Below, one piece after another: positions 12,330-36,686 of a DNA stretch of 45,399 nt. The stretch lies in assembly GCA_001600495.1 (NCBI GenBank), contig BCKE01000092.1:36440-81838 (forward strand), read 5' to 3'. The DNA comes from Pilasporangium apinafurcum (lineage: Eukaryota; Oomycota; Peronosporomycetes; Pythiales; Pythiaceae). The position numbers and the translations under genes were made by a program. Below the pieces are notes generated by a model, which did not search any database, had not been told where the DNA came from, and saw only the letters and a program-made list of their open reading frames with translations. Each line of letters begins with the position of its first letter. The first letter of the stretch is position 1.

Positions 12330-12891
12330 CGTTATCAATACCTTCATTCTTGGACAAATCAAAAGTCCACCTACAACGAACTCGAGAAGATTGCTACTAT
12401 GTCTACATTCCGGTGTTGAAAGAATTCCAGCAGACATACTCCATTCGAACGAGTACAATCGATCCCGGAGTCCGTAGTTTCATAACTTTGTACGACCATC
12501 ATGGCATGATGTTAAGCATGGACGACGCCAAGAATGCAATGTTTAATCGCTATATGTTGGTTGATATTCTATCCTTCGGGACTTCAGCGATGACATCCAG
12601 GTAAAGAAGGATTTCAAGCAAGGTGTCAAGAGCAATGCTTGTGTGGTCTCATTACGAGTTCAAGAAGCTACTAAAGTACAAGATGGAAAAGAGTGGAGGA
12701 TGCGTGGTCAAGTGTGAGAAACAGTATGCAACAAAGACTTGTTCTCAGAGTTCAGGTATCGGAGACGGCTACTCTTAGCTGGTTTTTGGTAGTCAGGTCG
12801 GACCGAAAGAAAAACAGGAGCTCTTCCCTCAGTTACTTTTACTTTGGCATCTCATGTGATCTCTTGAGATGACGCAGATTCTTAACATCTC
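12330..12891 (+). pseudogene. Fanzor relic copy 2 (TnpB-like nuclease, internally shortened)
   Basis: One reading frame (phase of 12350) runs from about 12345 to the TAG at 12776-12778 with a single internal stop (TAA 12602-12604, CAA in copy 3). It reads LQRTREDCYYVYIP, then RuvC-I 'STIDPGVRSFITLYDHHG' (catalytic Asp codon 12461-12463). Then comes the RuvC-II region, where the expected Glu is GGG (Gly, 12578-12580). Next are 'RISSKVSRAMLVWSHYEFKKLL' and a damaged zinc ribbon 'KQYATKTCSQSSG'. These are strong TnpB/Fanzor signatures. Only 39 codons separate the RuvC-I Asp from the RuvC-II position, against about 87 in ISDra2 TnpB. The hydrophobic C-terminal tail can be traced after a frame change. 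A short inverted repeat (12866-12871/12886-12891) marks the end. Confidence 0.75.
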
Positions 12892-12931
12892 CACTATTTC
12901 ATAACTGATAATTCAGAATGTTGATCAGCCA

Positions 12932-12946
12932 CTCATTTTTCCCACT
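12932..12946 (+). promoter_or_regulatory. Possible oomycete-type initiator
   Basis: CTCATTTTTCCCACT resembles the oomycete start-site consensus in its first half (CTCATTYYN) and lies 20 nt before the ATG at 12967. The second half fits poorly. Confidence 0.4.
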
Positions 12947-12966
12947 CGAATAGTTTGCCGTGAAGG

Positions 12967-14131
12967 ATGACGCAGATGATCCTCCGGCGACTCGCGCATA
13001 GGCAGAGTCTCTCTGTGTGTCTGCGGTATCCACAACTATCAGAAAGAAGCGGAAGTCGTGTGTGTAATGTAGATATTTGGCTTCGATGTGAGTTTTCATC
13101 ATCTTCCCCCAATTACAAGCAGAAAAAGAAGGAAGATGAAGAGACTGCGGCGTTGATGTTAAAGCGCAAGTTGTTGATGGATGTCGAGAAAGCAAAAAAT
13201 TTAGTGAGTTTCTCTATCCTGATTTATATCAGTGTTTGTCATATGTCATGAATGGATTACTTATCTGTATACTTTTTGGTGTGTAGGCGCTTCATCAAGT
13301 GGTAAATGTGCCCAATGCGATTACTTTTGCACGCATCCTGTCCACGCCGTATTTAGCGTATCTAATCATCAGCGGTGAATACGCATCGGCCACAGGACGT
13401 ACGTGATGTTGCTCTCCCTTCGTATTATGAGGATTCCTCTTCATTGAACTCATTGCTGTGGTTAAATGCATGTAGTACTAGCAGTTGCTAGTTTTTCCGA
13501 CTGGCTTGATGGTTACATCGCGCGAAGGTACAAGCAGCAGGTGAGTGTCCATTTATGGCTTCTGAGCGGAATGACGCACTCAATATGTGTGATCAATGGT
13601 TCTGTAGTCCATCATCGGCTCATTCTTGGATCCATTTGCCGACAAATTTATGGTCGGCACTCTATCGCTGAGTATGCTATGGTCGGGGCTGCTTCCATGG
13701 CCACTGGTTGTGCTCATCTTTGGTCGTGACATGCTGCTGATCTCGGGCACATTTTATCATCGCATCAAGACCAAAGACGCATCTTCTGCTTTCTTCGATA
13801 CGCATGATACGGGAGCGTTCCAAGTCGAGCCAACTTTACTTAGCAAAGTAAATACGGCCCTCCAATTCGGTCTGTTTGGGCTGACGCTCACCAACGCGGC
13901 CTGGCAAATACCGCCAGATCCAGCGCTGCATCTGGTCTTGTAAGTGTTCACCACCTGTGCTCTGCGACATGTTGGCCATATTGCTGATCGAAAACAATTT
14001 CGGGGTTTGCATGTAGTGGTATCGTCGGCACAACGACCTTCCTCTCCGGGTCGGAATACCTGTGGAGTTATATCAACCAAACCGGAGCGTTTCGAACTCT
14101 TCAAAAGAAGAAGCCATCGTCTAGACATTGA
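12967..14131 (+). CDS. CDP-alcohol phosphatidyltransferase, cardiolipin synthase type
   Basis: Five exons: 12967-13203, 13287-13398, 13476-13540, 13608-13939 and 14017-14131, giving 286 residues. Spliced exons 3 and 4 join to make the full family motif D-x2-DG-x2-AR-x8-G-x3-D-x3-D (SDWLDGYIARRYKQQ|SIIGSFLDPFADK); the intron cuts exactly through it. The sequence before it, VVNVPNAITFARILSTPYLAYLI, and the GTTTFLSGSEYL near the end fit eukaryotic cardiolipin synthase (CRLS1 type), which joins CDP-diacylglycerol and phosphatidylglycerol in the mitochondrial inner membrane. The first ~75 residues are rich in Arg and Ser, as in a mitochondrial targeting peptide. A phosphatidylglycerophosphate synthase is the main alternative. 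The Fanzor relic copy 2 ends about 75 nt upstream. Confidence 0.88.
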
Positions 14132-15090
14132 ACATGAATCTAAATCGAATGAATGACGATCAGTGTTTTAGATTCAAAGCTGATGAAAATGTTGGTCATG
14201 TGAGGCTGTCCATGTGAAGCCAACTTGCTATCTCCCAGGTACGGTACCCTGCTCAGCCAAAGGCTTGAACAGCTTTAGTACCATATGTTACCTTTGAAAC
14301 TGGATATTATGGTGGACCCATCTCCGGACAAATTCGGAACCCCGATATTAAACTCAAATGAATGTAACCTTACAGTCTTGCAGCAATTCATATTTCCTGA
14401 ATTTCAATTTTGCGCGAAGCGAAGGAGTAAGCAGCTGATTTCCTTAAACACGCAGGAGGAGAGAGGATGGGACCATCGGACCCATTGATCCAATTTGGAA
14501 AGGAGCTCCTCCACCACCTTTTTTTCTCGATCCTTCCTCTCCTCTAATACCACTAAGAGCACGAGAAGATGATTTGTATCGGAAATCAGTACATCAACAG
14601 TCTACATCTGCATGAAGTCAATTTAGACAGTTTACTGGTTGAGAGATGATCCAGCTGGGTATTCATATCGCATGGTAATTATTAAAGGAAGCCATTAAAG
14701 CTACAAGAGACATTGCAAAATCTCTCAAATCTCAAGCACTGAAAGAAGAACAAATGAATGGACATACACTTTATTATTACAGACGGAATGTGCGTCGACA
14801 CGCACCATTGAAACTCTTTCTCTTCTTCAGCCACATCTTCCTCCAACCAACAGCGTGTGAGTGGAAAGGGAGAGGTGGTACAACCATGGATGGATGCATT
14901 CTCCCTTCCCCCTAGGTAGGGTTAGCAAACACGCTTTATTACAAAAATTGTATGCACAGCTACATATATTAATTTTCAGAGGTTATGTTCAACACGGTGT
15001 TGGTTTTTGTCCTTCCCATCATTTTCGCATTTGCCCCACAGCGGAGGAAGAAGAGAAGACAACAAGCGCACCGACATACTTACCGATACG
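14132..15090. other. Intergenic region, no gene recognised
   Basis: About 960 nt between the phosphatidyltransferase and choline kinase genes. A short open stretch around 14475-14620 (GPIDPIWKGAPPPPFFLDP in one frame) looks coding-like but ends in stops, and no family was recognised. The last 100 nt include a possible initiator, TCATTTTCGCATTTG (15019-15033), 57 nt before the kinase ATG. No RNA gene was seen. Confidence 0.4.
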
Positions 15091-16152
15091 ATGGCCTATA
15101 GCACCGAATCTGCTGTGACTGTGGGGCCTTTCCTCGCTGCTATGGCCGCGCTCGAGAAAGAAAAGCTCAAACTCCACGCAAATATTGTCAAGACGCTCGC
15201 TGAGTGTGTGCCTGGATGGAAAGGTTTCCAACAGACGGACGACATTAACGTGGACCACTTGGGCGGCGCAATGACAAATCTCATCTTTGCTGTATCCAAG
15301 CCCGATGGTGAAAACCCTGGTGTGCTGTTGCGTATCTACGGTGAAGGTACGGAGTCGTTTTTCAAGCGCAAGGAAGAAACGCGGTTGTTCCAACTGCTTT
15401 CGGAGAAGGATATTGGCGTTGAGCTGCTCGGCCAATTCAGTAATGGACGTGCGGAAAAGCTGATTCAAGGCGCGACGTTTACGTGGAAACGAATGCGTTC
15501 ACCTGAATGGATACCTTTGGTCGCTAAGAAGATGCGTCAATTTCATGAAATTGATATCGACATTGACCACACGCCGCGCTATTTGAGCGAACCACAACGC
15601 TTGTTGGAAATTGCCAAGAAAAAATGTGTGGGGGAGAAATTCAAGAACATCGTGGACTTTGCGCAATTAGATAAAGATCTTAAAGAACTGGAAGATACCC
15701 TCGCTAAAGTCCATTCACCGATTGTGCTAAGCCACAACGATTTGCAATACGGCAATATCATGGAATCCGACGGCAATGTTGTGCTTATCGATTTCGAATA
15801 CACGTCCTACAATCCACGTGGGTATGATATTGGTAACCACTTTTGCGAGTGGGCATACAACTACCACAAGTCGATCAACCCGCATTTGGGCGATTTCAGC
15901 AAGTACCCTTCGGTGGAACAGCAGCGTGCATTCTGTCGAGCATACCTCGAAAATGATGACAATACTCCTGTAACCGATGAAGAGGTGGACGCACTGCGGT
16001 TGGAAGCAAACACGTATTCATTGGCATCGCATCTCTTTTGGGGGTTGTGGGGATACATCCAAGCGAGTCAATCGGAGATCGACTTTGACTTTTTGGCCTA
16101 CGGCAAATGCCGGTATGATGCGTTCAAGTCTCGCGTGACTTTGAAGAACTAA
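15091..16152 (+). CDS. Choline/ethanolamine kinase
   Basis: A single exon of 353 residues. The frame is open further upstream, but the first ATG that fits family length is 15091 (MAYSTESAVTVGPF). The enzyme phosphorylates choline or ethanolamine with ATP, the first step of the CDP-choline/CDP-ethanolamine route to phosphatidylcholine and phosphatidylethanolamine, in the cytosol. The kinase fold is shown by 'GGAMTNLIFAV' (nucleotide loop, ~residues 56-66), Brenner's motif LSHNDLQYGNIM (~215-226) with the catalytic Asp and Asn, and the choline-kinase motif LIDFEYTSYNPRGYDIGNHFCEW (split here only in description; ~233-255) with the metal-binding Asp. The C-terminal HLFWGLWGYIQASQS is also typical. 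Choice between choline and ethanolamine cannot be made from sequence. Confidence 0.93.
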   Translation: MAYSTESAVTVGPFLAAMAALEKEKLKLHANIVKTLAECVPGWKGFQQTDDINVDHLGGAMTNLIFAVSKPDGENPGVLLRIYGEGTESFFKRKEETRLFQLLSEKDIGVELLGQFSNGRAEKLIQGATFTWKRMRSPEWIPLVAKKMRQFHEIDIDIDHTPRYLSEPQRLLEIAKKKCVGEKFKNIVDFAQLDKDLKELEDTLAKVHSPIVLSHNDLQYGNIMESDGNVVLIDFEYTSYNPRGYDIGNHFCEWAYNYHKSINPHLGDFSKYPSVEQQRAFCRAYLENDDNTPVTDEEVDALRLEANTYSLASHLFWGLWGYIQASQSEIDFDFLAYGKCRYDAFKSRVTLKN

Positions 16153-16483
16153 ACTCCGTGTAGAATAGCGAAACGTTGAAACACTCATTTTGATGTATGG
16201 CTGTCTATATAAGAAGGAGCAAACGCACTTTGTCTCTGTAGAAGTAATGTACAGTCAATTGTGTAAGAAGAAGCGCGAGTAGGAACGAAGGAAATCACGA
16301 ACAACTTCGTTATTATATTCAATAGATCCCTTTACATTACACCCATTCTCTCCACTGCATGATCATTCAGAAAGTGTACCCATCCATTCGTACCCTCCTG
16401 AGGGTACGCCAGATGGTTACATTGTAACTCTTCTGTCCTTTCAGGATTACATTTCGATCATGAAGAGTTGAAGTTAGTTACGA
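16153..16483. other. Intergenic region with a palindrome
   Basis: About 330 nt between choline kinase and the coiled-coil/ankyrin gene. The only notable structure is the perfect inverted repeat at 16389-16408, listed separately. No other feature was seen. Confidence 0.5.
16389..16408. repeat. Perfect inverted repeat, 9-bp arms, 2-nt loop
   Basis: CGTACCCTC (16389-16397) and GAGGGTACG (16400-16408) are exact reverse complements around CT. It lies 76 nt before the ATG at 16484, so it may be in the promoter or 5' leader. Function is unknown; it could bind a dimeric regulator or form a hairpin. Confidence 0.75.
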
Positions 16484-19400
16484 ATGGAGGAACTGAATCA
16501 GTTCCTCAATAGCGTCGAAGCGAGCGCGCGCAAGATCCTCAAGCAGCAGAACAAGAAGCAACAACAGTTGATCGCGCGTGAACGGGTCGCTAATGCGCGC
16601 TCGTCATCTACTAGTCATACTGCCACCAGCAGTCCGAAGATCTCAAAGGAGGAGCTGCGAGTAACCTACGGCTCGGGAGGAGCACTTATCGTCCACGCGC
16701 CAACATCTCCACATCAGCAGAATCAACTGTCTAGCTCTCCGGTGGGTAGGCGTAGCGAGCATGTGAGCGACGTTGCAGATGATGATGAGCGACGGTCGCT
16801 ACCTCGCATTCATCCACCTCTGTCGCCTACACCCAACCAGTCACTGCACAGTTCCACATCCATGTCCAATCTCGCTTCTTCTCAGCACAACAATGCGAGT
16901 CTTCCAGCGATTGGCGATAAGAAACAGGAGAAATCGAAGGGACAACGGAATAAGCACGCATCGATGAAGCTACTGAACTCGCCATTGTATAAATCACTGG
17001 CAAAATCCAAATCTGATCAAGGCTTTTCGACAGCCTCCACGACGTCGCCTGCGCAGGTATTGAAGAAGACCTTACAGGATGTCGATAATGTGAATCTTTT
17101 GCTAAAGAAGATGGGACTACGTAATGGCGGCAATTCACCCACATTACGTCCAGATCATGCAGTGGAGAAACGCATGTGCCATGCCTGTTGGGCTCAACCA
17201 AATAGAATGACTGGGTGTGAACACCATCCACGTGTTCTCCCGGCACATCAATACAACGATGATTCAGGCGCGATGCTTCGAGTTACAGAGCTCCAGGGTC
17301 CAACTAGTTGGTTAACGGACGATCTGTATGTAAAATATCGATCCGAGAAGGATAGAGAAGCGCTGTGGGAAGTGTTTTTGCGACTTAAAGAGGAAGAAAA
17401 ACGAGAGAAAGAAGAACATAGTAACCAGAAGAAAGAGCACCTGACGGAGCTGTGTGTAATCCCCATAATCACACGACATCCAGTCTACGCCAAATATTAT
17501 ACACAAATTGAATTGGAGAATATACGTACCCAGGCAGAGACGAGAAAACGGAACCAAACGAAAGCATTTATATTTGATGTCAATCACATTTGGCTGATAA
17601 ATCTCGATCATTTTAACGAACAAAGTTACAAGACTAGGAAGAGAAAGTCAACAAGTCGGTTAACAATGCCGGAATTGGAGACAAGCGATGAGGACGACTT
17701 AGATCAAGCAGAACAAAACTCTTTGAGAGATCGTCGTGATGAGGCAGCGATTCAACATGGATATTCCCAAATTCAGTCCATTTCGACATCGCGAGCACTG
17801 CAGAATGCCGTATTTCCAGATATGAACTCTGTTGTAGCTTCATATTCCTTCCAAAGACAACCCTCGATCAATAATAACTCTGCTTTGAAACAAGCAGTCA
17901 CTCCGACACAACGCCAACGACGACGACAAAGCCCGAAGAATGGGTTTTATCCGCTCAGTTTACTCGTTTGCGGTCGATGGCGAGCAGATGTCGAGCCAAA
18001 TGCGCTCGATATAGTTCCTGGAGTGGCATTAACAGGAAGGCGGCGTGTTCTTTGGTGGATCTATCAGCACGACCCACCAGAACAAGAGTATACGAAAGCA
18101 GTGGCGATGTACACTCGAGACCACACATTGTCCTCGTCAAATGCCATTTTAGTCTTGCTTGTGGTGGCGCTCGATGCACCAGTACTTTCACCCCTGTGTT
18201 TTGCATGGCAGATTGGGTCGAAGACATCACCACCACCGATACCGACCCTTGACCCAGCCATATCGAATATAGCTACTGTAGTACAATTCTCGCCATGTAA
18301 GCGGAGTTTGGTGAATACGCGTCTTCAATCGCGTCTTGACTCTCTCTTGCCATGTACAATTATGGTACTCAACAACATCGCACAGCCCGACGACCATATC
18401 ATGTGTTTAGAAGAACCGTATGGTCATCGTCGATTGTGGAAAGAAACAAATGAGGACTCCTTTCGGCAGTGGTGGATTGTAGAGCAGTCAGTGCAACCAA
18501 ACTACGATGTTATTCCGCAGCAATGTAGCGTACAAGTCGCTCAACCAAATTCGACTGGTGTGTGCGGACGATTCTGTTGGCACTCGACCGATGTGATAGA
18601 CCAGTTGCTTTGTCGAAGACGTGCTGAGCGCGACTTCATCCAAATTATTCAAAACTGTCGACCATGTGGTTCGAATGATCCTGCCTACTTTACGGTTTCG
18701 ATGGCGCACGAAGTGATGATGGATGTGCGAGCTGCGCGATTATCGGCATACCTGGAAATGTTGGAGGAACGGCGAAAGAATAAAGAGTACGAAGAGAAAC
18801 TCATGGAAATCGAACAGAAACTTGAGGTGGGACGTCTGAAGTTAGAAGCAAAACGACAAGAACAGAAGCGTATCGAGCAGGAGATCTCGCATACAGAAAT
18901 GATGAAACAAAAGCATGGTTCCGATCGCTCTACAATCGAAACGCTAGGGGAATGGAAACATCGACTACAACACTCGATAGTACTCGATGAGAAACACGGA
19001 TGGCAGATGCGTGAGATTACAGAAGATTCGAGTCATGTGATATTTTACTATTTGTTAAATGAGGAGTGCCCTCCGGCCTATCGATATACATGGGAACGAC
19101 CTGTAGTATGGAAGAACGAAGTTAACGCCGACAATAATCTAGATAGGGAAGAGCCGAAGGATGATGGAAACCTGACATCAAGAAGTGATATTTCCTCTCT
19201 TTCTTCTTCCTCAACGTCTTCATCAATGGTGAGCGACAGCTCGCTGGATCAAAAGCAAAAAGAAAATGCCGAGCAAATAGCGCAACTGGCTCGGTGTCTG
19301 GTTCAGGATGAGCAGTTTTTGCAGGTACTGAAGGAGAAACTTGGCCTTCATGCTTTTGCAATGGCAAAAGCAGAAGAGAAGAGTACGAGTCAAAAACAAA

Positions 19401-20382
19401 AAGTCTCCTTAAATGATTCCCAGGACAAGGATGACGAAGACGAAGCATTACGACTTGATTGGGAGGATCAGATGGCGATGCTTGTTGAGGAAAGTGATCG
19501 GTCAAAGGCATCATTAATGACGACAAAGATGGCAAAGCTGCATTTAAACCCTCCTCACCGTGCGTTTACTCGACCAAAAGTACCAGGTGAAGGATGGAAG
19601 CGACTGAAACCAACAAGATTACCCAAAAACTTTGCACGTACTGTCTATTCCTCTCATACAGAGGGGCCACGTTCGCAATTTATCAACCAGACCAACCACC
19701 CCACGCCGGTGGGGATGCTGGATCCCGCTGATGCCAGTCCAAATGAACCACCTGACTTCATTCCGGAGCTGAAGACCCATTTCATTCCCAAACCCAATGC
19801 TGATTTGCAGGAAAAGAAGGCAGTCTGGGCTACATACGAGGCTACACAATCGAAAATCCCAATTCAAGGAAATCCTATTAGTGGCACAGCCGCTCAAATC
19901 AGAAAAGATCAATTGTTTGAGCGTGATCCCGCAGAAGCCGAGATCACGATAGAGGAACGCGTACAGAAAGCCATTCTCTGTGCACGGAACAACAACATTG
20001 AAGGGGTACGTACTAAAACTTTATTGCTCACAATTGCATGTGCACCAATACTGACTTGGTGTCTTTGCTCATTCTATGTCAGTTGGAAGCTGCACTGGAT
20101 GACGGTGTGGATGTAAATTCACGGGACAATTATGGCAACACGCTCTTCATTCTTGTGTGTCAACAGGGCAACAAGCGCATTGCCAAATTTCTTCTACGCC
20201 GGCACGCTAATATGAATCTTCAAAACATGAATGGGAACACAGGGCTACACTACTTATACGAGTACAAGCATGTTGAGCTGGCCGAGTATTTAAAAGCGAA
20301 AGGCGCTATTGACACGATCACAAACGCCTCTGGCCTCACGTGCTATGAAGGATTGAGTCAGGACAACCTCGAAGCATTGTAG
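16484..20382 (+). CDS. Large coiled-coil protein with C-terminal ankyrin repeats
   Basis: Two exons, 16484-20005 and 20083-20382, give 1273 residues. Splicing restores an ankyrin segment: ARNNNIEG|LEAALDDGVDVNSRDNYGNT, then NKRIAKFLLRRHANMNLQNMNGNTGLHYLYEYKHVELAEYLKAKGA, about three repeats at residues 1165-1265. Upstream parts are a disordered Ser-rich N-terminus (1-220), a small Cys/His cluster CHACWAQPNRMTGCEHH (~231-247) that could bind a metal, a Lys/Glu coiled coil (~295-320) and a long one (~752-815, EERRKNKEYEEKLMEIEQKL...). An acidic, Ser-rich stretch precedes residue 960. No enzyme motif was seen. Ankyrin plus coiled coil suggests a scaffold, possibly cytoskeletal or flagellar, but this is a guess. 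I do not recognise the family. Confidence 0.8.
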
Positions 20383-20678
20383 GAATTTTGACAATTGTAC
20401 CATAACGAAGAGATGTATCCATATACTTCAATTTCACAGCTTTGTAATCGGTAAGGGTCATCATTCTTTTATTGTTGATCCTCTTCGTAGATCCAGTTGA
20501 TGAGGCATTGAAGTTCATGTGAGTAATTGTGCTAGTGTGATGTATATTTACCAATATCTTTATATGCACGAAAGAAAGCAAAAAAAAAAACAAGCTCCAA
20601 TACCTCAAGCACACGCAGTAAGTCTCAGGCTTCTTTTCCTCTTCTTCCTATTTTCTCTCTTTGTCTGGTGAAAAATGC
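20383..20678. other. Convergent 3' intergenic region
   Basis: This lies between the 3' ends of the ankyrin gene (plus) and the cellulose synthase gene (minus). It is AT-rich with an A run near 20580 and presumably holds both polyadenylation regions. No other feature was seen. Confidence 0.4.
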
Positions 20679-25486: not shown

Positions 25487-25510
25487 GGTATTTGCAGCAC
25501 TTGATTCAAC

Positions 25511-26676
25511 ATGATGCAACTTAGCAGAGTCTCTGCAGTGTTAGCTGCTTTTCTTCTTGGTTCTTTTCCGTCAACAGTATCAGCAACTAGCAAATTTAAC
25601 CAGTCGGCTGGTTATGTTATTGATGTGGTAACTACGGACTGGTCCAACTACGATGCGGATTTTGGCGGCTGTGTGACTTGTCCATATACCTGTACCACCA
25701 CAATCTACACAGAAGACGGAACTGCCGTGAATAGCAGCTCTTCGGTTGCGGAAGATTTGCCGTCCATTTACAGCGAAGAGAAGTCCCATGGCTGCTGTTA
25801 TGTCGATTCCAGTGACTCCAGTACTGACCCAAGTTGCTCGACCGAAGCCAATCCAGCTTCAGCTGAGCCCTGTGGCTTCCTGACAGGTCCAAGTTTGAAA
25901 TGGCGAATTGCTAACGCAGATGAACCGCCATCTAGCAGTGTGGTAAGTTGAATTGCGCTCTTGATGTTGATTCTTCAATCTTCTCACATTGCTATTCTTT
26001 GTTGTAGATTGCCATGTTGCTCGCTACTATTGATTGTGAGACGTTCTGGGCTATCGGTGAAACTCCAATAAAGTACACAGAAGAAGCTGCTGCAGTCTCC
26101 GGATCCAAAGTGATTAACAACGGCTGCTATGGCGACTCTGCAGGCGTAGCGATGGCTCTTGTTGGTTGTCTCACGACAGAGTTAACTTACGATTCGTCAT
26201 CAACATACACATGGGAGAAATTGGCTGGGAAGTGCGCTGGTCTCAGCGGCAAATGCGTTCTCACCAATGGTATCTGGGGTGAACATCTCAAGTGCTGCAC
26301 CAAGTCGTCCGGCTTGAGCTCCGACTGGGATAAATCATACAAGCTTTACACGGCAACGACCACGACTGGCGTGTCGCTCAGTGGACCGGAAATCTGCTTG
26401 ATTGTATTCTTGGGCGTCGGATTTTTGATATGGCTAGTACATTGTGGCGCCAAGGTTCGTGAACGAGCCCATCAAACAGCAATGATGCGCGAACAAGAAG
26501 CGAGTGACGATTACGACGAAATCATGACACCGCTGACCGGTGCGGCCACAGTAGGACGTCCAATGCCGCTACAGCGTCCAATTGGCCCAGCTTCGTTGGA
26601 GATTTCGTTGCATGAAGGAGATCAGATTTTCCAAAAGCCAGCTGACGAGTTATTGTACGAAGGAGATCTCAATTAG
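25511..26676 (+). CDS. Predicted type I membrane protein, tandem paralogue A (unknown family)
   Basis: Two exons, 25511-25942 and 26008-26676, give 366 residues. A signal peptide (MMQLSRVSAVLAAFLLGSFPSTVSA) leads into a cysteine-rich outer domain that starts with the strongly conserved block SAGYVIDVVTTDWSNYDAD and CVTCPYTC. It has further cysteines in GCCYVD, PSCS, KCCTKS and elsewhere. One membrane span (EICLIVFLGVGFLIWLVHCG, ~268-287) precedes a cytosolic tail with a basic start, an acidic DDYDEIMTPLTG stretch and the ending GDQIFQKPADELLYEGDLN. Both tail and outer domain are shared with the gene at 27655-28913. The family was not recognised. A cell-surface role is inferred from topology. 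A promoter-like motif ends 24 nt before the ATG. Confidence 0.88.
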
Positions 26677-27654
26677 AGAGTTCTCGAGCCTACAACAAAC
26701 AAGCATAAATTATCCATCCACGTCACTTAGGGAGAGTCTTTAAGCTTTGAAAGGCTGTCGTTGAGATATGTGAAAGAGCAGGAGAATTTCACGTTGACAA
26801 GGATGAACGTTTAACTTCTAGAAATATATCAATCAACGTTAGACTGTACTTACGAACAAGTAGCGAACGAACAATAAAATAACTCGAATAATATCATGTC
26901 CATGCAAAATCGGATGTGGTTGATTACCCTGCAGCGAATTAACAATCTGCATAGTTTACTTTTTACTGATCGAATGCACATTGCATTTTTATGATGGTCC
27001 ACCCCATCATGAAGATCTCACAAAGAAGGATGCTTGCGCGAATCCAGATAAGGCAATGAACGGAGTGATGAAGATGATGGCATTCAATGGAGATCATACA
27101 CGCTCTGCTACGATTGTTTAGATTCCTCGGGCACATACACAAAATGATAAAATGGCTAGTGTTCATAATCCTCAGATGTACCCATGTGAATGTATCCACA
27201 AAATTTTAGTTTTTGGATACGTTCAGTAAAAAATAACCGCGCGGGATTTTAGATCCAATTGTCAGGAAAAAATCCGTAAAATACAGCCCTATCCTTTCTT
27301 TTCCATTTCGTGGCGTCGTTCGGCAACGCCACCCAGTAAAAACGCAGCATCGATTTGCGTGTAGGGTTCTCCCACTTACAAAGTGATTCGGATTTGTAGG
27401 GTTGCGGTCTTCAAATATTCGTTTCAGCTGGGTGGTTTTGGTTTTTAACGATGCAAGTAATTTATTTTCGAAACGGAAACCTTTGTTCGAGGATGCGAAA
27501 GGGTCGAATGCTGTAGCGCACTCTGGTATTTTTCTTCTTTGGCCGCACAGACCACTTCCAGAAAATTGTTGGATCATCCCCACACAACTCACATTGTGGA
27601 GTAGCGGAAAGGAAGAGGAAGAAATCCACACACACACACACAGTAACGTACATT
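26677..27654. other. Spacer between the tandem membrane-protein genes
   Basis: About 980 nt. One frame at 26975-27228 (ECTLHFYDGPPHHEDL... MNGVMKMMAFNGDHTRS) is open apart from one stop and looks coding-like, but no family was recognised; it may be a decayed gene piece. A short CA repeat lies at about 27626-27642, just before the ATG of paralogue B. Confidence 0.35.
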
Positions 27655-28913
27655 ATGGCCCCGTCCTACCGCCTTCTGTGCGCGCTGTCCGCAGTGTACA
27701 CTGCCGCGCTTTTGTTGACGCATGTGGACGCCAGCAAAAGTAAATTCAACCAATCCTCCGGATACGTGATCGATGTGGTGACGACCGATTGGTCTAATTA
27801 CGACGCCGATTTTGGTGGCTGCGTCACCTGTCCGTACACATGTATAGTCGACACGACCGGCCCATCGGGTACGACACTCAACCTGAGTAACGCAACGCTC
27901 ATGGCGTCCTTACCGTCGATCTACACCGTCGCCAAGTCAAATGGATGCTGCTATGCATCAACTGCCGACTCCGATGTTATGCCGAGTTGCTCTGCCGAAG
28001 CGAGCCCGACTACCGCTGAAGCTTGTGGATTTCTCTACGGACCGACACTCAAGTGGCGAATCGCTAACGCACTCAACCCGCCAACGAAGAATGTGGTATG
28101 TAAATATGTGATTGTGGAGATAACTGAATGCAGAATGGGGAGGCTAACTTATTTTTGATGATTATGTAGATTGCTATTTTATTCGCATCGATTGATTGTG
28201 AGGATTTCTGGGCCGTGGGGAAAACGGCGATCAAGTACACGTCCAATACCAAGTCAGTCTCGGGGTCCAAGATGATTAATCATGGTTGTTATGGTGATCC
28301 AACGGGAGTTGCTATGACACTTGTGGGTTGTCTCACACAAGAGCTGAAGGTGAGTTTGATTGCCATAGATAAATTTGCTGGTAGCAATAGGGATTCTGAT
28401 GATGTTATTGTTCTTTCTTCTTAATAACAGTACGACAAGTCAAAATCGTACACATGGGATCAACTAGCGTCGAAATGCCAAGGGTTGAGTGGGAAATGCG
28501 TGCAGACGAACGGCGTCTGGGGGGAACATCTCAAATGCTGCACCAAGAGCTCCGGACTCAGTTCGGACTGGGACAAGTCCTACAAAGTCTACACTGCCAC
28601 AGCCAAGACAGCTATCACTCTGTCAGGTCCAGCGATCTGTCTCATCGTCTTTGGCGGTGTTGCACTGATGATGTGCTTGGTACATTTCGGTGCGAAGGCG
28701 CGCGAACGGGCACGTCAAACGGCGCTCATGCGGGAACAAGAGGCGACGGACGACTACGAAGAGATCATGACGCCACTGACTGGCACAGAAAAACGACCAG
28801 TGGCACTCACTCGACCGATTGGGCCAGCATCCTTGGAGGTGTCGTTGCATGAAGGAGACCAGATCTTCCGCAAACCGGCCGATGAAGTGCTTTACGAAGG
28901 TGACATGTACTAA
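27655..28913 (+). CDS. Predicted type I membrane protein, tandem paralogue B (unknown family)
   Basis: Three exons, 27655-28095, 28170-28349 and 28431-28913, give 367 residues. It matches paralogue A along its whole length: signal peptide (MAPSYRLLCALSAVYTAALLL), SSGYVIDVVTTDWSNYDAD, CVTCPYTC, GCCYAS, the 'WGEHLKCCTKSSGLSSDWDKSY' block, one membrane span (AICLIVFGGVALMMCLVHFG) and a cytosolic tail ending KPADEVLYEGDMY. The first intron is at the same place as in paralogue A. The second (28350-28430) has no counterpart there, where the frame simply continues (ELTYDSS against ELK|YDKS). Codon use is more GC-rich at third positions than in A, suggesting the pair is not very recent. Function is unknown. 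Confidence 0.88.
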
Positions 28914-29844
28914 GCCAAGCGCTTATGAGCAGATTGATTTGATTTTTGCCATCGCCATCCAAGCGCACGCGATTATATCTTGTCTGTAGTTTTAGATGCT
29001 AGCGCCTGAAGAAAACGATGCCGATCGATCCCATAATTAGGCTTTTTCAGGTGCCACCCGAATCCATAAATAAGACCTCCTTTTTAATGTACTGTCGGTC
29101 TTATTGGCTGAAATAATGAATTTATTTTATCACTAAGCGTAATTTCTACCAATGAAAGTAACAAATGTGAATATCTACTAATGCTACTTCACAATGGTGC
29201 CTGCCGTTGATGGCTACACATTATCCAACATGCTCATCTCCGACGAGTCCTCATGCACGTTTGATCAACTAACAGTCGGCAACGTCTTCCAATTGATTCT
29301 CCATACTGATCGCCCGTTGTTCCTCGGTCAGATTTAGGAAAGGAGTAGAAATACCGATGAAATCTCTTAGAAATACCTTGCTGCCACTTCGGACTGAGCC
29401 TGAACCGATAGGTTTCGAACTTTTGATGTTGTTGGTACTGATGTAACCAGATTCTCATCACTCGGTGGCAAGGATCAAAGTTCTTCAGCAGAAACTTCTA
29501 CCACTAGAGAACCGACTTATCTCTCTCTTAGAGTAGCACCAGCGCTATGGATTTTTGTGATGTAAATGGTAAATATTTTCGAATGTCGTCAGACTCTCAA
29601 GATCTTTCCATTCGAGTCATGGAGCCTCAAACGCTCAAAGTCTGTCCATCTTCTTTAGCAATGGACCCAAACATAACGGTGAGTGCGACATAAGACGACC
29701 GCGGTGTCGAAATATGTGGTTGGTGATAATACCAACAATCGCTTGCAGAGCTGCACTATAATTACCATGTGCACGCAGCAACTAGTAATCTTTGTTCCAA
29801 GTAGACTCTGATGCATACAGACCCCTTGTGAAACGACGCGCCAA
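28914..29844. other. Intergenic region with a possible decayed coding stretch
   Basis: About 930 nt. On the minus strand, about 29410-29270 reads KSSKPIGSGSVRSGSKVFL then FLNLTEEQRAISMENQLEDVADC, which looks coding-like but breaks at stops on both sides. No family was recognised. No RNA gene or repeat was seen. Confidence 0.3.
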
Positions 29845-32800
29845 ATGCCAAGAGGTCGATATGTGTTCTCAGTGTTGCTGGCGGGTGTTGTTGTAGTCGC
29901 GGCGTTCATGACCTCAACGCCTTTACATGCTGCCAGATACTGTACATTCGACGGCTATTACGATGCAAAAGCTGCCACGACGCAGCCCTGTCCAGGCGCG
30001 CTTCCTTGTGAACCAGGCTTCTACTGCACGTAAGCAGCGCGTCTCTACTTTCTTCAAATGATCTTCCTCATGGACTGACGTTGTAACTATTACATCCCTA
30101 CAGCAATATGAAGCGATTCCCATGTCCACCCGGGAAGTTTGGTGCGGAGCCAAAGCTTCGTACGGCTAGTTGTTCAGCTCCGTGTCCATCAGGTTTCTAT
30201 TGTCCAGAGGGCACTGCCACCCCGTTGGAATGTGGTGCAACCGATCAGTATTGCCCATTAGGTGCTATAGCTCCAAAACCTGTCCCAGCCGGATATTACT
30301 CGATAGGAATCTCCAGCCATCGACGAGATCAAATTCAGCCGTGTGAACCAGGCACATTCTGTGTCAAAGGCATGAGGATGCCCTGTCCAGCTGGCACCTA
30401 TGGCAAAACCTCTCGGCTCTTTACTCTCAATTGTTCTGGTAAGTGCCCAGCCGGACATTACTGTTCAAAGAAGACAATCGATCCAATCCCCTGTCCACCT
30501 GGCACGTTTGGAGCCATTACTGGTGCTACAACCGAGTCGTGTTCCGGGAAATGTTATGCCGGTTTCTATTGCCCAAGTGGTAGCATTTCCCCCACAGCCC
30601 ATCGATGTAGCGGTGACAATCAGTACTGTCCAGAGGGAAGTTGGGCGCCATTAAAGCTACGAGCAGGAACATATACACTCAAACAGAAGGACAAGCAGGT
30701 CGTTTGTCCGCGGGGCTCCTTCTGTACTGGAAATGATGGCTTGGCTGAGCTCTGTCCTGGTGGCACCTACGGTGCTAGTGAAGGATTGAGCTCTTCTTTA
30801 TGTTCCGGAAAGTGCCAAAACGGATATTACTGTCCAAGAGGAAGCACAAGCCCAACAGCTTTCGAGTGCGGTGGCAGCCACGTCTATTGTCCAGTTGGTT
30901 CGAGTGCCCCGCTTCCAGTCTCGCTTGGCTATTACACGACTGGCACCCTCTCATTATACAACCATGATCAAGTCAATGACGATGCAACGACGCGGTTTGC
31001 TCAATTTCCGTGTGAACCAGGTCTTTATTGCATCAATGGTGAACGCTGGTCGTGTCCAAGTGGGACATATGGATGTGCATTTGCATTGACCACTTCATCA
31101 TGCAGTGGGAAATGTGCAGAAGGATACTTTTGCCCAGAACGCAGTATTGTTGCGACACCATTTGCATGTGGATCCAGTGTATTCTACTGCCCATCAGGGT
31201 CGTCTACTCCCACACCAGTCTCAAAAGGCTATTGTGCCATTGGCGGCCGAGATGCATCGACCCGTGTGGCACAACGCCTAGCACAACCAGGCGAATTCGC
31301 CTGGAAAGGCACGTGTTATCCTTGTCCAGCTGGTACGTTTGGGAATGCAAGCGGAGAAGTCAACCCTCAATGCTCAGGGAAATGCCTGCCGGGATTCTAT
31401 TGTTCAGCTGGGAGTATCAGCGCTACACAACACGAATGTGGAAGTGCTGCTTTTTACTGTCCAGAGAGGTCGACAGCCCCAGTTCCAGTGAGAAATGGGT
31501 ATTACACGTCAATTGATGTCCAAGAGCAGTGCCCGCCAGGTTTCTTTCGTGATTTCTCGACTACAACATCGACTTTTTTTGATCTCGTGACTGGAAGGAG
31601 TCCCATTAGCGTCAATTACGGGGATTATTTGTTTCCACTCGCAAAATGTGTCTATTGTCCCATGGGAACCTTTAAGCCACAACATGGTGATAGTATGACG
31701 CTCTGCACGCTTTGTCCAGAGTTTACTACAGTCAGTTCCACTGATCGCCGCACGTGCGAGTGCTTTCGCTTGGCTGGAGGAGAGGCTTATGATTCAACAA
31801 AGTATGCGCTTCGATTCGTTGCTGAACAACTCTCCTGTGAGCTAATACTTCTTGAAGAGGCAGTTGACACCGCGTCTATTGCTGCCAACAACAGTCTATT
31901 TACACGTTTTGAACAGTTTCCTTGTGAAAAGGGGTTCTACTGCCAAGCAGGGGTGCGCTATCCATGTCCAGCCGGTTCGTATGGCAATGTTGCACATGAG
32001 ACAAATCCAAAATGCGCAGAAAAGTGTTTGGCTGGTTACTATTGTCCATTAGCAAGTACGAACAGCACTGCGTATAAATGTGGAAACGTCAACGTCTACT
32101 GTCCAGCGGGAAGCGCTTCGCCTATACCCGTTCTAGATGGCTTTTATTCCATTCGGACAGCTTTACCATCACTTCCCAAGGCACAAACTGGCTTAGTGTT
32201 GACACAATCAGTCTTCTCTGCTCAAGTCGTGCAGTATATATCGGAAAATGCCACAAGCAATGAAGCCATTCGTGATTCACAGAGACAATGCGAAATCGGC
32301 TACTTCTGTGTAAATGGCCGCAAATTCATCTGTCCTGCTGGTCGATACGGCGATCGCACAGGTGAAACCTCTTCGCAATGTGCTGGACCATGCAAACGTG
32401 GCTACTTCTGCCCACCTGGAAGCACATCACCTACACAGTACGAATGCGGCGCGAACGACCACATCTGTCGGACTGGGTCAGCTGTGGCTAGTATCATACC
32501 CGCGGGGTACTATTCCATAGGTCTCACCAACACTACTCGATTTTTCCAGCGCCCATGTGAACCAGGGTTTTACTGCATGGATGGTATCAAGCGACAATGT
32601 CCTGAAGGTTTCTATGGCGCTACCAGTGGGCTACAAAGTGCTGCTTGCTCGGGGAAATGTGTAGCAGGTTACTACTGTCCGTCTTATCCGTTTCAGCCTA
32701 GCGTCTCTCGTACACAAAATGAATGCGGCAACTCGACAGTTTACTGCCCGGAGGGGACAGGCAACACGCCGCTTTTGGTGCAGAGTGGTCATTACACTAT

Positions 32801-33182
32801 TGGTGCAGGTGATGGCTTGATAGAGAATGGCCGGAATGCCACACGAACAAATCAGAAGATTTGTCCGAGAGGCTTCTACTGTCGACAAGGCATCATCATT
32901 CGTTGTCCAGAGGGGACTTATGGTGACGAGGAAGGGCTAAGTGTCCCAAATTGTAAAGGATGGTGTCCTGCGGGGTACTTTTGTCCACCCGGTACTGCTG
33001 ACTATCGACTAAATCCATGTCCAAGTGGATCGTTTGCCACTGCCGGGTCGAGCGGTTGCATCATTTGCCCACCCACATCGCTTAATCGTTCAGAGATTCT
33101 TTCAATACTCCAGATTTTGCCTCAAGAGCTACGCAATCTTACACCATGTACAGACAATCGTAGTTGCTGTTTTTATGGCTAA
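29845..33182 (+). CDS. Large secreted protein with about ten cysteine-rich (ephrin-receptor-like) repeats
   Basis: Two exons, 29845-30029 and 30104-33182, give 1087 residues. A signal peptide (MPRGRYVFSVLLAGVVVVAAFM...) leads. The rest is mostly a repeat of about 70-110 residues with the frame CEPGxYCxxGxRxxCPxGTYG, then CSGKCxxGYYCPxGSxSPTxxECG, then YCPxGSxxPxPVxxGYYxxG. Ten copies of the C-x3-C hinge (CSAPC, CSGKC, CAEKC, CAGPC, CKGWC) can be counted. The middle (~residues 555-625) holds a divergent unit with CxxCPEFTT and CECF. The pattern is like the GCC2/GCC3 or ephrin-receptor-like cysteine-rich modules. No membrane span or anchor was seen at the C-terminus, so it is probably secreted or wall-bound. 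Exact function is unknown; adhesion is a guess. Confidence 0.88.
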
Positions 33183-33382
33183 GCAAGTGCGCTGCAAGAA
33201 AGGGTTCCAATGAGACCTTGTTTTTGTTTTTGTTTGACTGCGGTGAGTGGAGTTGTGCGGTAGCACTACTAAAAATCTCTAACTTTCAAATTTCTTTCCA
33301 TTACAACTGATCCATCCACCTGTTCCATCCCATCACTTGAATAATCGACTCGTCGCACAGACAGCAAGCAGCTCATTGAAAT

Positions 33383-35002
33383 TTAAGATACACCAAGAGG
33401 GATGACACGGACCATCATCGGACCTTTCACTGCGAGCATTAGCGATGCCTGGAAGGTGATATCAAATGGGTTCTCGACGGTTTGGATGTCAAACTGAGTT
33501 AACATGACCGCCAACGCGATCTTCATCTCCAGCATCGCAAACTTGGCACCAATGCATGTTCGTGGTCCCGCCAAGAACGCACTGAACTTGAACGGTGAGA
33601 CCGAAATTAACTCACCCGTAACAGGATCCAACCATCGCTCTGGCTTAAACTCACTGGCGTCTGCACCCCACACAGTCGGTTGTCGTGCCTGCACATACTG
33701 AGGCAGCATGACACGAGTGCCTTTTGGAACGACTGTGCCATCACTCAGCACGACTGATTCGATCGCCTCTCGTTGAGAGATGGGAAGTGGTGGGTTCAGT
33801 CGCAGATTTTCACGGATCACTGCCTCCAAGTACGTTAGCTTTTTGAGGTCATCCAGACTCGGGATCTCAATCTTCTCGCCTTCTTTCTTATTGTAGAGCT
33901 TGGGCAACTTCTCGCGCAGTTCAGTGCGTAGTTTAACGAGCACATCCGGATAGCGGTTCATCATGACGATGAGCCACGTCATGCTCTGCGACGTCGTATC
34001 CTTACCAGCAAAAATGAAGCTGATGATCATATCGCGGATCAAGTGCATCTCCTGGTCAAAGTTCTTCGGTTTACTGTTGCTGTCCTGGTTGATATTACTA
34101 TCAAGGAAGAGCGAGATGAGGTCCTTCTTCTTACTTTTTGGAGCGTCTGAATTACTTTTATTGGTCATTGACTCGGAGATGATGGTAAAGATGAGTTTGT
34201 TGACGACTTCCAGGCAGCGTTTGTTTTCCGCCTCATCACCCACGTTCAATAGCCGCTTGAGTCTCCAGAGCCATCTGGGCTGCTGTCTTCGTAACTGGAT
34301 AATCTTGGCATTATATGCGAAAGCACTAACAAAATCATTTTGCAACGGACCATCGCGTCCACTTTCCATGCACTGCAAGTCTACACCAAAGCCAATTTTC
34401 GCAAAGACATCACTTGTGAAATGACTCAACTCGCGGTTCCAGCTGATTTCCCGGTTGGATTTCGCATAATACGCCAAATTATCGTAAAAAATGAGTATTT
34501 TCTCCTTCACGACATCGTGCATAACGTCCTTCATCATTTGCAGCGAGAATAAGTGACTGGCAGTCTTGCGTTGGTAAAACCACTCATCGCCATCCACCGC
34601 CAAGATACCGCGCCCAAAGATATCGCGGATGAGCGATCCAGTTTCTTCCCCTTTGTAGAAGATAGAGGCGTGATGTTTGAGTACATCTTCGAAGAGCTCA
34701 GGAGATGTGACAACAATGTTACGTGGACGGCCGACAACGGTGAATTGCCAAGGTTTACCCTCCACTAGCATACTCTGCTCAACCATCCAGTCCAACAGTC
34801 GATGCTTTTGGTACTTCATTGCATCGAGTGTGTTGCCCAGTAATGGCAGTGTGGATTCTGGTTCAGGTAGCGCATATTGTTTCTTCTTGGCGTAGGAGAA
34901 CAAGAGGTAGACCGCGGCGATGGCAGCAGCTGAGGTGACGGCGAGTTGCTGCTGCTCCTTGGTAAGCGATGGGGACTGGTTGAGAATCGCTTGGAGATTC
35001 AT
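33383..35002 (-). CDS. Cytochrome P450 (CYP86/704-like)
   Basis: A single exon of 539 residues if translation starts at the ATG at 35002 (MNLQAILNQSPSLTKEQQQ). This start gives a normal P450 N-terminus with a membrane anchor (AVTSAAAIAAVYLLFSYA) and then a Pro-rich hinge. The frame stays open 190 codons further upstream, but that part resembles a decayed transposase, not a P450. Signature parts are the I-helix FAGKDTTSQSMTW (~332-344), ExxR in ENLRLNPPLP (~396-405) and the heme loop FLAGPRTCIG with Cys ~481. The overall look suits the fatty-acid omega-hydroxylase-like clan (CYP86/CYP704), so it may hydroxylate lipids at the ER membrane; the substrate is unknown. It is convergent with the cysteine-repeat gene, 200 nt apart. 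Confidence 0.9.
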   Translation of the reverse strand: MNLQAILNQSPSLTKEQQQLAVTSAAAIAAVYLLFSYAKKKQYALPEPESTLPLLGNTLDAMKYQKHRLLDWMVEQSMLVEGKPWQFTVVGRPRNIVVTSPELFEDVLKHHASIFYKGEETGSLIRDIFGRGILAVDGDEWFYQRKTASHLFSLQMMKDVMHDVVKEKILIFYDNLAYYAKSNREISWNRELSHFTSDVFAKIGFGVDLQCMESGRDGPLQNDFVSAFAYNAKIIQLRRQQPRWLWRLKRLLNVGDEAENKRCLEVVNKLIFTIISESMTNKSNSDAPKSKKKDLISLFLDSNINQDSNSKPKNFDQEMHLIRDMIISFIFAGKDTTSQSMTWLIVMMNRYPDVLVKLRTELREKLPKLYNKKEGEKIEIPSLDDLKKLTYLEAVIRENLRLNPPLPISQREAIESVVLSDGTVVPKGTRVMLPQYVQARQPTVWGADASEFKPERWLDPVTGELISVSPFKFSAFLAGPRTCIGAKFAMLEMKIALAVMLTQFDIQTVENPFDITFQASLMLAVKGPMMVRVIPLGVS

Positions 35003-35099
35003 AGTTCGGTGGTGATTGTAAAGAGAGGAATCCCCAAGTGTGTGAGAGTGAATGAAAGTGAACTGAATTACATAACCTACTGGGGGTTGGATGTGCTCG

Positions 35100-35770
35100 G
35101 GAATGTGAATTATGTTGAAGAACACGCCACGAATGCATTGTCGCTCCTCATGCTGTAGAAAGTACATCACAATCAAAGAGCTATAAAATCCATTAAAATA
35201 TAATGGGTAAAACAAAATAAAACCCATTATCCAGTATTTATACCACTTTAATCTAGTACTCTTTCGCAAAAAAACCCTCCATTGTTGATTTAACCCAGTT
35301 TTATCCCATGGGTTGAACATGATGATCCCTTGGAGGTCCACATTTTGGTAGACGGTACAACGGGTACCTTGACATCTGCCTTTATTGTGGGCTAAATAGG
35401 AACGTCTCTGCTTTGGATCGATGGTGTCGCCAATGGGTTGGCGTGGGACAAGAACATGGGAAACTACAACATTTCCTTGAACTTGATCTGCTCGTTTGGA
35501 CCGCCGCAACTTCCGTAAAATGTAGCAGAATTTTTTTTCATAAAAAATGTCTAAGAAAGGCGGAGTCGTCATGTCCTTGCAACAGCTTTAATATCACATG
35601 GTCATTTGAATTCTTTCAAGATTTGCAACTCCTTAGGCTTAGTCATTGCTTCAAGGCATTAGCTTCTGTTGTTAGCCATTTCCTCCATGTAGCTAACACC
35701 AAACCAAGACCGTCTGGATTGGTGGAAATGCCACATAGTGAACAAATCTCAAGAATTGTGGTTACCATTT
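35100..35770 (-). pseudogene. Decayed piggyBac-like (PGBD) transposase fragment
   Basis: Minus-strand reading in this AT-rich stretch gives pieces that recall the C-terminal part of piggyBac-type transposases of oomycetes. The best is STRLKWYKYWIMGFI..FNGF near 35260-35180, against the usual STRFxKYYKSLFLGF..VNGY. Others are a YQN...WDK-x-L-x-Q piece before it and 'SYMEEMANN.S*CLEAMTKPKELQ' near 35690-35620, which recalls the L-x-EEL..G-x-R-K-N region. There are stops and frame changes. It lies directly upstream of the P450 and is open in the P450 frame for 190 codons, which artificially lengthens that ORF. The identification is from partial motif memory. Confidence 0.38.
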
Positions 35771-36686
35771 AATACCGATTTGGGTACGGACACCTCGTGC
35801 AAATGTATAAAGAACATAGCATCCAAGTCGAGATTCACGCTGATCAACAGCTTCATCAAGACAACAATGAAGACATGGAAGCACAAGAAAGTGCCAAGAA
35901 GATCTCTCACCTCATGTTAACATCTTGGTTGTCAGAAGAAATGGAAGGAAATCAGGAATGTTTAAAAGACTCTGATCTCCGAGACTCGACAAGGATCAAA
36001 TGATGCGAGATAGACAAACCAAGTCAAGAAAGGATAACTCGACTTCGGTTGAAATCCAATCTCGATCAATAAAGTCTGATGAAGATCAACTTTGATTCTT
36101 TCCACGATATGCTGGTTTCTCCAGGAATGAAGGTATTAAGATCAAAAAGCAACTTCCGACACTCGGATATGCAGCTCATTTACAGAGAACTCGAGAAGAT
36201 TGCTACTATGTCTGCATTCCTCGAGTAAAAAAATTTGAGTGGACAGACTCAATTTGAATGTGTGCAATCGATCCTGGAGTCCGTGATCTTATGACTTTGT
36301 ATGACCGTCATGGCATGGCATTAAGTGTGGATAACGCTAAGCGCACAATGCTCAGTCGTTGTCTGTTGATTGATCTTCCATATTTCGAGATTTCAGAGAT
36401 GATGTTCAGGCAAAAAAGAATCTCAAGCAAGGTATCAAGAACAATGTTCATATGGTCTTACTACAAGTTTAAGAAGCTAGTGAAGTACAAGATAGAAAGG
36501 ACTGGAGGAAGTGTAAAGAACAGTATCGAACAAGAACTTGTTCTCAGAATCTAGATGTCGTAGATGTCTACGCTGCAGTTGTCTAGTCTTAATTAGCTTT
36601 TGATAGTCAAGTCGAGCTCAAACAACAAAACAGGAAATCTTCCTGTAATTACTCGTACTTTGGTATCTTTTGAGGTGATCCACCTC
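35720..36686 (+). pseudogene. Fanzor relic copy 3 (TnpB-like nuclease, longest copy)
   Basis: The clearest copy. The part from about 36115 on is one frame: FSRNEGIKIKKQLPTLGY, LQRTREDCYYVCIP, a TGA stop (36255-36257, CGA in copy 2), then RuvC-I 'AIDPGVRDLMTLYDRHG' (Asp codon 36270-36272). RuvC-II 'LPYFEISEM' keeps its Glu (36387-36389), followed by 'RISSKVSRTMFIWSYYKFKKL'. The zinc ribbon (QYRTRTCSQ...) is broken and needs a frame change; the tail ends near 36675. Only 39 codons separate the RuvC-I Asp from the RuvC-II Glu, exactly as in copy 2. The third catalytic Asp was not found. Upstream, 35720-36110 has weaker matches to the N-terminal region (SQELWLPFNTD; DLRDSTR). These proteins are RNA-guided DNA nucleases when intact; this copy is dead. 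Confidence 0.75.
36672..36686. repeat. Terminal hairpin of Fanzor relic copy 3
   Basis: GAGGTG (36672-36677) and CACCTC (36681-36686) pair perfectly around ATC. The hairpin begins where similarity among the three relic copies ends. Copy 2 has a looser version at the same place (GAGATG 12866-12871, CATCTC 12886-12891). Confidence 0.5.

Follow-up and report, generated by a model that had tools for sequence, protein, structure and literature searches.

The window analysed here is a stretch of 45,399 nucleotides from the oomycete Pilasporangium apinafurcum (assembly GCA_001600495.1; contig BCKE01000092.1, positions 36,440–81,838; C92:36440-81838 in our numbering), whose genome comprises 36.47 Mb in 136 contigs. 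The window carries two relics of Fanzor, the eukaryotic homologue of TnpB, which we refer to as copies 2 and 3. Both are very probably dead, non-autonomous copies of an IS607/Fanzor2-like element that go back to one ancestral 156-bp deletion (D2), were copied in trans, and have had their deletion alleles shuffled between copies. A sequence-only reading of the window had noticed that the two relics share a shortened spacing between RuvC-I and RuvC-II, and had proposed that an already-shortened element was multiplied, either mobilised in trans or as a compact form that kept some activity or an RNA-only role. The crippled version probably owes its spread to the aid of other elements and not to survival as a small functional enzyme.

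A deletion shared by 18 loci

Copies 2 and 3 have 39 codons from the RuvC-I Asp (codons at 12461 and 36270) to the positions first read as the RuvC-II Glu (12578 and 36387). This spacing was correctly described, as were the Asp codons and the in-frame stops at 12602 and 36255, and it is not due to chance. It is shared because of the exact D2 deletion, an in-frame loss of 156 bp (52 codons) with 2 bp of microhomology that removes positions 1260–1415 in reference coordinates, which are those of an alignment based on the long copy L041. In long copies of this genome, such as L041, 91 codons separate the two positions, and 91 − 52 = 39. As the sequence-only reading expected, the spacing is longer in intact Fanzors: besides L041, the mimivirus protein L79 (9b0l) has approximately 95 codons, by hand count on the L041–L79 alignment, and L053, a member of a second Fanzor family in this genome, has 125. 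The residues given for TnpB of ISDra2 are D191 and E278.

Exactly 156 bp are missing at all 18 loci whose genome-search match crosses the D2 junction (16 besides copies 2 and 3), as determined by base-by-base alignment; this count includes L015, where the aligner displaced the gap by 6 bp. The relics described as a pair do have the same spacing, but they belong to one class of 18 loci. Some of these are recent duplicates of one another, and 13 remain after collapsing them. A junction identical to the base at every locus says that the shortening arose once and was then multiplied. As an exact shared deletion predating the spread of dead Fanzor copies, D2 is a clean marker. The D2 loci are found largely on six small contigs, C66, C67, C70, C92, C97 and C100 (15 of 18, versus 4 of 59 matches without D2), contigs that were picked post hoc. 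The count of same-contig pairs among them has p 0.004 for all 18 loci and p 0.18 for the 13 left after collapsing. Linked diagnostic bases near D2 are few, and the best has an uncorrected p of 0.001 among 384 columns.

The shared shortening is not the only loss. Both copies also lack a further 137 bp (D1), and copy 3 lacks 343 bp more (D3), neither of which had been recognised. The limits first given to the relics (12330–12891 and 35720–36686) are replaced by those in Table 1. The 27 bases reported as identical between the copies (12378–12404 and 36187–36213) are indeed so; the last 24 of them, when searched, gave two matches, with 0.00 expected by chance.

In Fanzors the RuvC-II Glu ("Ealt") adjoins the zinc finger, six residues ahead of its first Cys, as described in passages of PMC10711439. 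L041 has this arrangement, with E-HYTTKT-CSQC aligned to E-YLTTKT-C of L79, and the Ealt position is Glu in 38 of 50 readable rows, Lys in 11 and Ala in one. The codon at 12578/36387 is Gly in 33 of 53 readable rows, including the intact L041 frame, Glu in 10 and some other residue in 10; within the 18 D2 loci it is Gly in 10 and Glu in 6. It is not the catalytic Glu of Fanzor, which lies further on as a Lys in copy 2 and an out-of-frame Glu in copy 3 (Table 1). The 39-codon spacing is a good deletion marker, not a distance between catalytic residues. Since Gly is the commonest residue in the family, the GGG of copy 2 may never have been a Glu codon, and the proposed Glu-to-Gly change was wrongly taken as evidence of independent decay. 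That the two copies decayed separately is nonetheless clear from their differing stops and long end branches. More generally, the spacing of RuvC motifs in relics should not be taken at face value, since the catalytic Glu has moved in Fanzors.

Coding capacity of the deleted copies

With D1 (reference positions 1600–1736) the last part of the zinc ribbon and the RuvC-III Asp are lost and the reading frame is shifted; the deletion is exact in 14 of the 17 D2 loci readable there. Two of the remaining D2 loci, L008 and L018, keep the D1 segment and have 4 and 6 in-frame stops respectively, while L019 breaks off before D1. D1 is also present in copies without D2, and its borders show no microhomology. 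At least one in-frame stop precedes the D1 point at all 18 D2 loci, with that of L097 falling in a poorly aligned part, and an uninterrupted D2 frame with catalytic residues was found at none of the 18. In copies 2 and 3 neither the RuvC triad nor the zinc ribbon is intact, given D1, D2, the stops and the state of Ealt, and neither copy has an intact gene for the serine recombinase or for Fanzor. Stops recur in many copies at the same CGA and TGG codons (reference positions 979, 1036 and 1495), which suggests recurrent transitions or shared ancestry.

If the shortened form were a working compact nuclease that multiplied itself, the preservation of frame by D2 would be readily understood, and an excess of changes at third codon positions would be expected. 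D2 copies do differ at third positions 1.27 times as often as at others when compared among themselves and 1.44 times when compared with L041. However, long copies show an equal or higher excess among themselves (1.30 for B-ended and 1.36 for A-ended copies, the two end types being described below). Against L041 the long copies have lower values (1.30 and 1.14), which favours the D2 copies, but this comparison includes change older than D2, and we read no special constraint from it. The stops and the D1 deletion at 14 of 17 readable loci also speak against a working enzyme. In addition, D2 takes out a segment that aligns with the stretch of L79 leading into RuvC-II, and would be expected to abolish activity on structural grounds too. 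We therefore regard a compact nuclease as extremely unlikely. Long copies are present in the genome, including the uninterrupted L041; no intact short copy was found among the D2 loci. The D2 class has many copies, shared deletions, retained ends and no intact transposase, as is usual for non-autonomous derivatives. As far as can be read from their sequences, its members are not compact nucleases but dead, non-autonomous derivatives that arose by internal deletion from an IS607-type element (TnpA + Fanzor2-like).

The missing segments might instead be introns, spliced out before retroposition of processed copies. On this view it would be clear why D1 and D2 combine freely, with all four combinations present, as optional splicing would produce. 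However, GT–AG borders are absent at D1 and D2, which rules out introns there, the two segments belong to open coding sequence in L041, and copy 2 terminates in inverted repeats. Processed copies are thus hardly credible as a source of the deleted class.

The parent element

Fanzor/TnpB genes are numerous in this genome: the zinc-ribbon family PF07282 was above cut-off in all 150 candidates scored, out of 852 first-look candidates from the genome search. Copy 2 has at least 48 matches in the genome and copy 3 at least 85, both lower bounds with 40 candidates scored for each. The most informative of the long copies is L041 on contig C62, an uninterrupted frame of 504 codons that matches PF07282 (3.7e-21), HTH_OrfB (2e-10) and the RNA-guided TnpB model guided_TnpB (5.9e-43). 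Its best match among solved structures is mimivirus L79 (6.3e-25). The RuvC-I motif AIDPGV aligns to CGIDPGL of L79, and a C4 zinc ribbon and the RuvC-III RD (DRDVNAARN) are present. We call L041 Fanzor2-like by its helix-turn-helix, size and TnpA company, and predict that it is an RNA-guided nuclease.

A decayed IS607-type serine recombinase (TnpA) lies directly upstream of the Fanzor gene in several copies. At least four of the eight genome matches to PF00239 immediately precede a same-strand Fanzor gene (C62, C55, C17:239 and C1:1167832). The NF033518 model of IS607 transposases matches three long copies (6.8e-15, 1.4e-12 and 3.9e-12), below the full-length cut-off, and the TnpA pieces match serine recombinase structures including the TnpA proteins of ISC1904 and ISC1926. 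This arrangement was observed in long copies.

Ends and flanking sequences

Long copies of what we term the A type typically start with TTAACCTTTATTCC and finish with ..CGGTTAA, giving inverted ends TTAACC.. and ..GGTTAA. The 4-mers flanking CC..GG are identical in 6 of the 10 A-type copies with both ends readable, five with TTAA and one with TTAT/TTAT, and differ in the other four (L051, L063, L025 and L029). As TTAA is palindromic, end and duplication are indistinguishable in the five TTAA-flanked copies. The A-type copies L024, L042, L044 and L047 belong to this IS607 TnpA/Fanzor2-type family, in which short inverted ends are found together with TTAN flanks.

The B-type class, to which the window copies belong, has the same body but terminates in CACCTCAAGAGATCATATG. 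A 19-mer of this end has 296 genome matches with up to three mismatches, versus 4 for a reversed control. One D2 locus, L005, carries an A-type right end, and the B-ended copies L030, L031 and L035 keep sequence that aligns with the TnpA region. The places with terminal sequences that were examined are the first 100 of 296 for the B type and the first 100 of 834 for an A set, so that autonomous copies may have escaped.

Two candidate sources of transposase were rejected. The piggyBac family (PF13843) has three matches, and the sole stop-free one, L069 (C5:658288–659460, a 546-codon frame), is without matching ends. Pairs of B-type ends 2.2–3.2 kb apart were considered as autonomous elements, but at L073 and L074 they flank apparent host genes and may be chance neighbours. 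At both loci the B-type ends face outward on either side of genes that we take to be those of the host, the L073 frame being presumably bZIP-like, an arrangement that could represent capture or chance proximity.

Probable exchange between dispersed copies

Further exact deletions occur at two or more loci, namely D3 (343 bp), D4 (929 bp), D5 (1297 bp), D6 (142 bp), D7 (78 bp) and D8 (30 bp). These deletions are combined rather freely. The four-gamete test fails for D1×D2, D1×D3, D1×D4, D1×D7 and D2×D3. For D1 and D2, 13 rows have both deletions, 2 have D2 only, 15 have D1 only and 15 have neither, and for D1 and D4 the corresponding numbers are 4 with both, 4 with D4 only, 8 with D1 only and 10 with neither; the rows include the near-duplicates L011/L012, L030/L031, L032a/b, L076/L077 and L086/L088.

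Mosaics are also seen directly, as near-identical blocks within diverged ends. Positions 35677–36659 of copy 3 are identical (983/983) to a segment at C70:11.8–12.8 kb, while the last stretch has 13 gap columns and a substitution, and the flanks differ. Identity over 983 bp between differently flanked copies also speaks for the copying of dead elements. Between L006 and L007 the inner 873 of 875 bases are identical, but the right segments match at 101 of 123, and 18 columns there are gaps. Up to the D1 junction L018 is identical to L007 at 870 of 875 positions, and beyond it L018 runs on into zinc-ribbon sequence. Four loci (L006, L007, L012 and L032) are fold-back elements, in which inverted copies of the 3' segment lie at the two ends.

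A tree of 28 copies over 461 columns is star-like, and 14 of its 25 inner branches are so weakly supported that they are drawn open. The star-like shape and the scatter of D2 on it count against simple descent from one shortened master. It is conceivable that each relic lost the segment separately at a hotspot, as the scatter and the 2-bp microhomology of D2 could suggest; the sequence-only reading had accepted that long relatives close to each relic would point this way. Long relatives do exist, and D2 does not cluster. However, D2 has identical endpoints at all 18 loci, 2 bp is little for a hotspot, and D1 recurs exactly with no microhomology at all. The scatter is explained by the four-gamete failures and direct mosaics. 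Together the exact junction and the four-gamete failures point to exchange between copies, and separate deletions are, in our judgement, very improbable. Multiplication of an already-shortened element thus holds, with the identical junction as its support, but simple multiplication is insufficient and recombination between copies must be added. Copying in trans together with such recombination fits best.

The proposed history would begin with an IS607-type element encoding the serine recombinase TnpA and a Fanzor2-like RNA-guided nuclease. A single ancestral D2 deletion would have taken out 52 codons between RuvC-I and RuvC-II, and most D2 copies would also have come to carry the shared, frameshifting D1. 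As D1 removes the zinc ribbon and the RuvC-III Asp, most D2 copies therefore could not cut. The 3' segment and terminal sequences would have been retained, and copying presumably relied on enzymes acting in trans, as the sequence-only reading had suggested: copies 2 and 3 encode no intact recombinase or Fanzor and must therefore, we infer, have been copied in this way. Deletion alleles would then have been shuffled by recombination or gene conversion, of which the combinations and mosaics are the visible result. The likeliest mechanism would be break repair after excision or cutting of an element, with another dispersed copy as template. Internally deleted derivatives of DNA transposons such as P and Ac/Ds arise by interrupted gap repair. 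These resemble the present copies in their internal deletions with retained ends and in the mosaics between copies; here, however, the transposase is putative and the repair route is deduced from the copies.

Several observations weigh against this history. At L097 a gap of 174 bp, instead of 137, starts from the left border of D1. B-type copies showed no target-site duplication. The first 100 of 296 B-type places include no element that combines B-type ends with a transposase gene, and none of the eight PF00239 matches is a B-ended copy among those examined. The failures for D1×D3, D1×D7 and D2×D3 rest on single copies. D2 needs nine changes on the tree, close to the shuffled mean of 9.3, and forms no clade; constraining it to one costs 34 log-likelihood units and is weakly rejected (approximately unbiased test, p 0.04). 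Finally, the identical blocks may in part be assembly artefacts.

The retained 3' segment

Most D2 copies, with the exception of L018 and L019, keep the 3' segment largely intact at their right end. Deleted copies could persist as a source of guide (omega/reRNA) scaffolds, which intact Fanzors would obtain from this end, and the 3'-segment consensus is able to form two hairpins. Against such an RNA-only role, RNAalifold found no consensus structure and no covariation in 42 core segments or in 30 of the B type, 6 of 48 having been removed beforehand as fragments or near-duplicates. For the two hand-drawn hairpins, 82% and 86% of cells are paired; slid versions gave less, but letter shuffles did not (402 and 439 of 500 shuffles were at or above these values). 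Moreover, the 3' end would be kept anyway as a transposition end. These results lend no support to selection on structure, and we consider that an RNA-only role is improbable; guides may still have been produced in the active past of the element.

Relation to known elements

Published Fanzor2/IS607-type elements (Bao and Jurka 2013, PMC3627910; NAR 2023, PMC10711439), resemble the present parent: in both, TnpA precedes a Fanzor2-like protein that bears the DPG, Ealt, zinc ribbon and RD motifs. PMC3627910 reports the published elements without terminal inverted repeats (TIRs) or target-site duplications (TSDs). In contrast, the long A-type copies here have short inverted ends and often matching TTAN flanks, and there are many deleted derivatives. 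Parts of PMC3627910 list Fanzor2 elements in Phytophthora. In the portion of the open-licence literature available to us, we found no report of deletion derivatives of a Fanzor2 element.

The closest published behaviour found is that of the non-autonomous Chlamydomonas elements CRe-1/2/3, which passages of PMC3627910 describe as often 5'-truncated and internally deleted with intact 3' ends, as are the present copies. However, CRe-1/2/3 are Fanzor1 in Helitron2-type elements, whereas here the protein is Fanzor2-like, the ends are inverted repeats, and shared deletions occur in many combinations. The insect-virus Fanzor1 elements (HVav-1 and others) have, according to the same paper, TTAN TSDs and short TIRs. 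Their 4-bp TTAN duplications and short TIRs are comparable to the flanks and ends seen here, but they are viral Fanzor1 elements and the present ones combine an IS607 TnpA with a Fanzor2-like protein in a cellular genome.

A more elaborate scenario is that a TTAN-duplicating inverted-repeat transposon captured an element of the IS607/Fanzor2 type, which would be one stage of the route proposed to lead from Fanzor2 to Fanzor1. The crippled descendants of the captured element would persist because breaks at dispersed copies, perhaps cut by Fanzor, are repaired from one another, the deletion alleles travelling like homing alleles. This is an unlikely possibility. The case is ordinary in kind; what makes it interesting is the reticulation, along with the occurrence of TTAN flanks on an element of the IS607/Fanzor2 type. 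Several exact deletions that combine freely across copies offer a means of measuring recombination between dispersed elements that encode RNA-guided nucleases. The TTAN flanks on such an element are relevant to the question of how Fanzors entered ordinary eukaryotic transposons.

Features of the window and other Fanzor-related loci

The features located in the window, including a third relic, are collected in Table 1.

Table 1. Relics, ends, deletion junctions and coding landmarks in the window (window coordinates).
Feature	Position	Strand	Remarks
Third relic	1199..1517	+	element fragment with B-type 3' segment and right end
Copy 2	12311..12871	+	internally deleted B-ended IS607/Fanzor2-like derivative; alignment to L041 and inverted ends at 12311/12871; retains reference 1058–1259, 1416–1599, parts of 1737–1818 and B-type 3' tail
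Copy 2, left end	12311..12322	+	B-type terminal inverted repeat CACCTCAAGAGA
Copy 2, RuvC-I Asp codon	12461..12463	+	TIDPGV; via L041 aligned to DPG motif of mimivirus L79
Copy 2, D2 junction	12564..12565	+	156 bp (52 codons, in frame) gone; 2-bp microhomology in reference
Copy 2, position first read as RuvC-II Glu	12578..12580	+	GGG, Gly; commonest state, same as L041
Copy 2, in-frame stop	12602..12604	+	TAA; reference 1453; L008 and L029 also stop there
Copy 2, Ealt position	12719..12721	+	Fanzor-type catalytic Glu position; AAA, Lys
Copy 2, D1 junction	12748..12749	+	137 bp gone (rest of zinc ribbon and RuvC-III Asp); frameshift
Copy 2, right end	12853..12871	-	inverted match to B-type terminal repeat; 3 mismatches to 25-mer
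Copy 3	35677..36677	+	deleted derivative with B-type right end
Copy 3, D3 junction	36023..36024	+	343 bp gone; identical junction in L010, L011 and L012
Copy 3, in-frame stop	36255..36257	+	TGA; immediately before RuvC-I motif
Copy 3, RuvC-I Asp codon	36270..36272	+	AIDPGV
Copy 3, D2 junction	36373..36374	+	same 156-bp deletion as copy 2 at 12564/12565
Copy 3, Ealt position	36518..36520	+	GAA, Glu; out of frame with RuvC-I after 10-bp deletion
Copy 3, D1 junction	36547..36548	+	same 137-bp deletion as copy 2

The genome contains other Fanzor-related loci. The second Fanzor family (L048, L050, L052–L057, L059, L061 and L065) has several long open frames, and its pairs are 96.2–98.8% identical, a range that covers only matches of at least 96%. 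At L043 (C135:16707) a PF07282 match adjoins two overlapping frames, which we take to be a Tc1/mariner-type transposase. L072 (C34:5670–8121) is an element of 2.45 kb that has perfect TTAACCTTTATTCCCC inverted ends and encodes a different, Fanzor1-like protein, whose only structure match is 8gkh, the Spizellomyces Fanzor (7e-5). The L072 end has 834 near-matches in the genome, versus 14 for a control.

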